From contig JAGFIV010000026.1 in assembly GCA_024103275.1 (NCBI GenBank), positions 1 through 64,000 on the forward strand: a DNA stretch of 64,000 bases. Reading direction: 5' to 3'. The stretch's first letter is position 1. Each line of letters opens with the position of its first letter. The position numbers and the translations under genes were made by a program. Below the pieces are notes generated by a model. It ran no database searches. It was not told the DNA's origin and was given only the letters and a program-made list of their open reading frames with translations. This document shows positions 44,070-45,066 of the stretch, in pieces. Source of the DNA: Flavobacteriales bacterium. GTDB lineage: Bacteria; Bacteroidota; Bacteroidia; Flavobacteriales_F; PHOS-HE28.

Positions 44070-44320
44070 CAAGGCTCGGTTTTGTCTTTGATCTCCTCAA
44101 AATCGGCATCCTCCGCCATCAGGTCGGGCCTGCCGTTGCGCGGTTCGTCCACCCGTTCGATGCGGACATCACCCTTGGGGCGCTGCGGACCCGTCGTCCA
44201 GCGCAGGCGGTTTGGTCCGTCGTGGCGCTGGCGCACCCGCATCCACAGGCGCAGCACCTGCCAGACGATCAGCAGGATGAGGATGGTGCGCAGGGTGCCG
44301 TTGGCCGACAACAAATACAT
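44069..44320 (-). CDS. DUF4834 family small membrane protein
   Basis: 83 residues. One transmembrane helix (about 10-25, LRTILILLIVWQVLRLW) is followed by a charged tail ending AEDADFEEIKDKTEP. It matches the layout of DUF4834 proteins next to yfhO. The start at 44320 is just 6 bp after a TACATTCG box, implying a nearly leaderless message. Confidence 0.75.
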   Translation of the reverse strand: MYLLSANGTLRTILILLIVWQVLRLWMRVRQRHDGPNRLRWTTGPQRPKGDVRIERVDEPRNGRPDLMAEDADFEEIKDKTEP

Positions 44321-44325
44321 CGGTG

Positions 44326-44333
44326 CGAATGTA
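44326..44333 (-). promoter_or_regulatory. Promoter -7 element TACATTCG for DUF4834-yfhO
   Basis: Minus-strand TACATTCG followed by CA, ending 6 bp before the start codon. It fits the TAnnTTCG variant seen elsewhere in the window. Confidence 0.5.
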
Positions 44334-44480
44334 GAGGCCCCGCCAGAATGGGCACGCAGCGCCTGGCCACGGCCTGCGGGACACGGAAGGCCGATGACCA
44401 AGCATGATCCAGCCGTGCCCGGAGATCACGCCCCCCCTGTCGTTTCGGGGGATCGGGTTAACGTGGGGCGTAACGGGCCT

Positions 44481-44508
44481 GGATCTATTCATGGCCATGA
44501 ATAAGTCC
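44481..44508. repeat. Partial copy of the 38-bp palindrome
   Basis: It shares the core ATTCATGGCCATGAAT and the flanking GGATC with the full palindrome. The two cores are exactly 100 bp apart. The right arm is degenerate. Confidence 0.75.
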
Positions 44509-44575
44509 GTGCATGTTGAGCTTGGAAAATCTCATTCATCAGGCTATTTCCCTTCCGAAGCTCCTGAACATCACC

Positions 44576-44613
44576 GCACTGGATCCATTCATGGCCATGA
44601 ATGGATCCAGTGC
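44576..44613. repeat. Perfect 38-bp palindrome
   Basis: The sequence equals its own reverse complement over 38 bp with no loop, centred on GGCC between 44594 and 44595. It contains two BamHI-type GGATCC sites and two overlapping ATG words. It could be a binding site for a dimeric protein, a REP-like unit, or a recombination site. Confidence 0.85.
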
Positions 44614-44873
44614 TATCCCCGACCCCAAGCACCACCCCCCAGCGGAATCCGGCTCGGCCATCCGGTCATCCGGATGTCGGCAACGGGTCCATTGAGGCTC
44701 CGGGTCCAAAGTCTACTTCCGCGTAAATGGCGAAATGCCGTTTTGCTCTTCCCACTTACCGCACAGGGCTATCGCGTCTTCATTCATCAACGGTCATGAC
44801 TTCGGCAAAGGGGTAGGAACAGCAGGCCCAGCGTGCGTTCCTTGCTCCCCGGACCGTCGCTCGCTTTGGTCCG

Positions 44874-44914
44874 CCCCCTCGCCCTGAGCCCGCCGTTCGG
44901 CGGGCACGAGGGGG
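44874..44914. repeat. Branched GC-rich hairpin upstream of the DEAD-box helicase
   Basis: An outer 8-bp stem (44874-44881 with 44907-44914) encloses an inner 7-bp stem (44888-44894 with 44899-44905) with loop GTTC. It is not followed by a T run. It lies upstream of the inferred helicase promoter, so it is more likely a REP-like element than a leader structure. Confidence 0.6.
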
Positions 44915-45023
44915 ACGGGATTGCCGCACGCCGGGCCTGCTGTTCCGGCACATTCCCAGTACTGGCGGGAGAAATTGGACGCGATAGCCCTGACTTACCA
45001 CATCATATTCATAACCAAAAGAT

Positions 45024-45031
45024 TACCTTCG
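45024..45031 (+). promoter_or_regulatory. Promoter -7 element TACCTTCG for the DEAD-box helicase
   Basis: TACCTTCG followed by CG, 35 bp before the chosen start. The identical octamer with the same CG lies before carB on the other strand (54895-54902). Confidence 0.55.
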
Positions 45032-45066
45032 CGCCCCTTTTCGGCAAACCCGTTCAGGGTTTCCTC

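Follow-up and report, generated by a model that had tools for sequence, protein, structure and literature searches.

The perfect 38-bp palindrome studied here is best explained, with a probability of roughly 0.7, as the operator of a self-repressing MarR-family protein whose gene lies within or beside an array of such palindromes. The palindrome and a partial copy beside it would then form one dispersed two-site array of the operator family, which is our best reading of the pair. The window – the whole stretch of 64,000 nucleotides analyzed – is contig C58 of genome G000, a Flavobacteriales bin (assembly of 3.58 Mb, 137 contigs). The relevant features, in window coordinates unless a contig is named, are as follows.

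44321..45066, no strand: 746-bp intergenic region (~100–220 bp in syntenic relatives)
44482..44507, no strand: first putative 26-bp operator dyad, core TTCATGGCCATGAA at 44488-44501
44502..44587, no strand: 86-bp variable interior that separates the cores and gives no RNA-fold signal
44576..44613, no strand: perfect 38-bp palindrome GCACTGGATCCATTCATGGCCATGAATGGATCCAGTGC, which includes the second site
44582..44607, no strand: second putative 26-bp operator dyad, same core at 44588-44601
G000:C79:175-606, minus strand: MarR-family gene of G000, in or beside a palindrome array, on a contig other than the window

As an earlier note on this DNA had described, the palindrome is uninterrupted and centered on GGCC: its arms (44576-44595 and 44594-44613) overlap and are 100% complementary. 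The partial copy that shares its core (44479-44502) was also confirmed, as a 24-nt direct repeat (44479-44502 and 44579-44602, 96% identical) with a start-to-start spacing of exactly 100, the two cores likewise being exactly 100 bp apart. About 6e-7 palindromes of 38 bp are expected in 64 kb of the window's composition, and three sites within two mismatches of the core are present in the window where 0.30 are expected. The gene-free interval has the 746 bp claimed for it, but on the left it is bordered not by yfhO itself but by a short minus-strand ORF that starts at 44320 and lies immediately upstream of that gene; on the right is a DEAD-box helicase (start 45067) whose best named match, 72% identical, comes from Flavobacteriales bacterium ACE_BAC32. 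The proposed ten helical turns between the cores are closer to 9.5 at 10.5 bp per turn, and spacings elsewhere (71, 94–103, 109, 140 and 166 bp) have no common phase. Nor does the mere retention of a supposedly unstable palindrome say much about function: palindromes known to be lethal or strongly unstable in bacteria are far longer than 38 bp. The same gap also holds a 229-bp MITE-like element (44764-44992) bounded by terminal inverted repeats of 15 bp (CAGGGCTATCGCGTC); the 10-bp sequences on its two sides are nearly identical (ACTTACCGCA and ACTTACCACA). G000 has another complete copy of the element at L279:6829-7057, with 95.6% identity.

The 14-bp core is present in 21 exact copies in G000, in both orientations, against 0.006 expected; its reversed control gave no match. 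Nearly all cores occur in pairs or arrays with a spacing of 100–101 or 109 bp. A spacing of 101 bp is found on C16 (two pairs), C39 (where the partner carries two mismatches) and C104, and C26 carries an array whose units, some in one orientation and some in the other, follow at steps of 101 bp. A 109-bp tandem array is split over the ends of two contigs, C137 and C79; these have 25 bp in common and probably join. The DNA between the cores falls into several families. In one of these, represented at C16a, C16b, C104 and C39, the inner 71 bp are 62–70% identical between loci (except C16b and C39, 94%) and the cores are unchanged despite the diverged interiors, although core conservation is partly ascertained since sites were located via their core. 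The interior of the window pair is possibly a remote relative of this family, with p = 0.002 in a single comparison out of many. No RNA-fold signal was consistent across array interiors and none of them matched an Rfam family, on which grounds a structured RNA was rejected.

Two further observations concern these contigs. A tandem unit of ~286 bp, with two palindromes per unit, lies at the ends of C16 and C39 (L024:5715-6130 and L025:1500-2004) and runs off both; the two contigs may join via a longer array lost in assembly. On C104, an intergenic segment of ~95 bp (L027:1254-1348) has many matches in several relatives at ~69–86% identity and resembles another dispersed repeat of the genus.

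The genomes compared are draft assemblies, and the array search covered 45 of them, within the genus. Conservation of the pair in relatives, a check proposed earlier, was not found: in ~25 syntenic congeners the yfhO–helicase gap is ~100–220 bp long and contains no palindromes. Other loci behave alike in G033, the closest relative at several flanking genes (88–92% DNA identity): the gap is 187 bp at the C104 locus, versus 609 bp in G000, and 201 bp at the C16a locus, versus 1130 bp, while one palindrome, solo and degenerate, lies at the C137/C79 locus. Judged by these short orthologous gaps, the window array is lineage-specific, and most of the 746-bp gap is apparently lineage-specific inserted DNA. 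The earlier note had held that many randomly oriented copies, typical of inert repeats, or absence from all relatives would count against function. The pair is indeed missing from the orthologous gap and copies do lie in both orientations; the copies are nonetheless few, grouped, regularly spaced and linked to one gene family, which is not what inert scattered repeats would look like.

Scanning the relatives for repeated palindromes uncovered a symmetric variant core, TGCATGGCCATGCA, forming equivalent arrays in six other members of the genus: G034 (17 copies), G025 (14), G031 (10), G023 (8), G033 (4) and G042 (a single exact copy, besides near-variants). The reversed control of this core gave zero matches in each of the six. 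In G034 eight copies follow one another at steps of 99–100 bp, and a second set of eight (one with a mismatch) is spaced at 94–103 bp, its interiors following the higher-order sequence a-b-c-a′-b′-c′-d. From 81 sites we derived a 26-bp consensus dyad, GACNNW-T(G/T)CATGGCCATG(C/A)A-WNNGTC. Covariation of the arms beyond this consensus is weak (z ~2 at one position), as is easier to reconcile with a protein site in duplex DNA than with a hairpin. Clustering by similarity placed the interiors in 33 families, 14 of them at a spacing of 94–103 bp; the uniform-null tail for this peak, 6e-11, is optimistic, as families may share deep ancestry. Exact paired-core scans of genomic and viral contig collections, which may omit G000 and its near relatives, returned no match. 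In G025 and G023 (L269, L271, L272, L273 and L278) TTGTTAAAACGAC stands before, or its complement GTCGTTTTAACAA after, many of the palindromes; where both are present the dyad is extended to ~46 bp.

In all seven array-bearing genomes a gene for a MarR-family protein of 143–146 aa lies inside or abuts one array; tblastn against all the sequences collected placed a homologue beside palindromes in 7/7, one per genome, whereas nine loci that carry a lone chance core gave no homologue. In G034, G031, G025 and G000 the protein is encoded by a longer inter-palindrome segment. The Pfam MarR family (PF01047) scored above cut-off in all four proteins scanned, and an AlphaFold2 model (mean pLDDT 82, pTM 0.68) has a winged helix, with MarR proteins – several in complex with operator DNA – as its best PDB matches. 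A plasmid origin of the gene, for which there was a single weak Priestia match, was set aside.

In five of the seven genomes, G023 and G033 being the exceptions, a core lies at the marR promoter and ends 12–20 bp 5′ of the start codon; every one of the seven has a core or near-core beginning 21–114 bp past the stop codon. Directly after the upstream core, G034, G042 and G025 have TTACCTTG, TTACCTTT or TATCTTG, sequences resembling the Bacteroidota −7 element TAnnTTTG (PMC7366714). With the palindrome at the marR promoter, autorepression would be expected. In G023 a different inverted repeat, CTGGATCGCTCGACGAGCGATCCAG, sits at the operator position just upstream of marR (L272; start 8608, minus strand).

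The protein and its site may also have changed together. Residue 65 (G000 numbering), which precedes the predicted recognition helix, is Gly in G000 only and Asp in the six relatives; the TT..AA core is likewise confined to G000, the relatives having TG..CA. The two changes coincide in just one instance, which is no more than a lead. The system offers an immediate test of co-change between protein and site.

Some array loci are common between species; most positions are not. The marR locus is common to G025, G023 and G033, the array site adjoining gcvP to G034 and G031, and loci L269/L271 and L268/L278 to G025 and G023. Three of these loci (gcvP, L268/L278 and marR) keep their palindromes while the interiors are unrelated, which argues for selection acting on the palindrome; L269/L271, with 94% identity over its whole length, is uninformative on this point. 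The MarR protein of G033 shares 40% identity with its G000 counterpart, and G033 has three solo sites of the G000 type, two of them degenerate, as would be expected of site decay following loss of the cognate protein.

Together these data suggest the following mechanism. A MarR dimer would bind the 26-bp dyad, and where the palindrome stands just upstream of the marR start codon, as in most species, the gene would repress itself. Further short arrays of the putative operator, most often in steps of ~100 bp, occupy other intergenic regions and would serve as additional binding platforms, either titrating the protein or seeding a local nucleoprotein complex. Of the cooperative protein binding suggested earlier, the binding part has good indirect support from the MarR gene at the arrays in seven genomes, the promoter palindrome in five and the persistence of palindromes at shared loci whose interiors have been replaced; helical phasing as a basis for cooperativity is unsupported.

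Most arrays are not at promoters, and those at the C26, C16a and gcvP loci lie between convergent genes. Because several arrays are so placed, a plain regulon is an unlikely role for them. Titration is our first choice for the dispersed arrays, though weakly held. A broader proposal, plausible if still short of even odds, is a satellite-like chromosomal system: marR inside an array of its own operators (most often ~100 bp apart), more arrays in intergenic regions, palindrome and recognition helix co-changing between species, and arrays acting as protein-coated platforms for titration, insulation or nucleoid anchoring.

With autoregulated MarR-family repressors the system has in common a winged-helix protein whose own promoter carries a palindromic site. 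An ordinary MarR system has a single operator or a handful, close to the gene; here, in contrast, the putative operators are dispersed in regularly spaced arrays. Within a limited open-access library we found no precedent for MarR operator arrays or for such use of a MarR protein. Closest in design are the REP/BIME–RAYT systems, with a DNA-binding regulator here replacing the transposase. In both, palindromes flank and embed the cognate gene and the segments between palindromes are unrelated (PMC2817692); in both, repeats are species-specific, change symmetrically between species and form several arrays per genome. The cognate RAYT gene, however, encodes a Y1 transposase rather than a one-domain MarR-family regulator, and REPs are imperfect palindromes with a GTAG-type head, usually in more than 100 copies (PMC2817692), whereas the present palindromes are perfect, have no such head and number ~4–21 (21 in G000). 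Membership of that family was rejected: the Y1 loci of G000 have no exact core, and the site is rare and without the GTAG head.

Neisserial NIMEs (dRS3 plus RS units) are likewise units of 30–160 bp bounded by short palindromes, in several families and intergenic arrays (PMC3898611). Their dRS3 element, ATTCCC(N8)GGGAAT, a filamentous-phage target with ~700 copies, is nevertheless a different motif, which the core T(G/T)CATGGCCATG(C/A)A does not match, so that membership was rejected here too; the present repeats have no phage link, and PMC3898611 describes no embedded regulator gene. The L5-type mycobacteriophage repressor (PMC9283540) offers the parallel of a single repressor with a promoter operator and many other intergenic sites; its stoperators, though, are asymmetric, oriented with transcription and phage-borne, whereas the sites described here are symmetric, arrayed and apparently chromosomal.

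The parallel with RAYT/REP architecture (PMC2817692) lends some weight to a rival account in which a transposase or recombinase copies REP/BIME-like or MITE-like palindrome units between loci and MarR is passive cargo. Lineage-specific insertions at several loci, and mosaic and higher-order arrays in both orientations, are also what such mobility would produce. We nevertheless consider this account unlikely: the four Y1 transposase loci of G000 contain no exact core (a single match has three mismatches), no recombinase was seen among ten neighboring genes scanned, neither insertion edges nor target duplications were established, and cargo status does not predict a palindrome at the marR promoter in 5/7 genomes. 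A recombinase or segregation gene was equally absent from the neighboring genes sampled at some loci (ten scanned), as was an integrase gene among the same ten; integron-like cassettes with MarR cargo were dropped because palindromes lie at marR promoters.

Palindromes promote replication slippage, and tandem and higher-order copies are present, as they would be if the arrays were remnants of slippage and gene conversion without protein function. This is improbable given that unrelated interiors separate identical palindromes at shared loci, that 14/33 families fall in the 94–103 bp spacing peak, and that the tie to one gene family is invariable. More doubtful still is a role as chromosome-organization or segregation sites akin to matS or parS, in which the MarR-like protein would act as organizer: multi-site arrays at several intergenic positions off promoters would suit it, but genomes have only one to ~six arrays, at positions mostly not common to species. 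A CRISPR-like array with acquired spacers, for which identical repeats and interiors of like length but unrelated sequence might speak, is very improbable, since interiors recur as tandem and higher-order copies and have no phage match, and no cas gene is among the ten neighboring genes scanned.

Returning to the operator reading, its interest is that dispersed bacterial palindromes are usually credited to transposases (REP/RAYT) or to phage targets (dRS3). Here the cognate gene is apparently a one-domain transcription regulator, raising the possibility that a repeat family is kept by a DNA-binding protein and not by a mobile enzyme, and the question of what use operator arrays at ~100-bp steps have away from promoters. 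A search for small genes of DNA-binding proteins with a repeated palindrome on either side may uncover more such systems. As a side observation, in an unrelated Bacteroidetes bin, Umea1_bin-1585, two 20-bp palindromes with the core GAGTAATTACTC lie 42 bp apart (L083:43-105).
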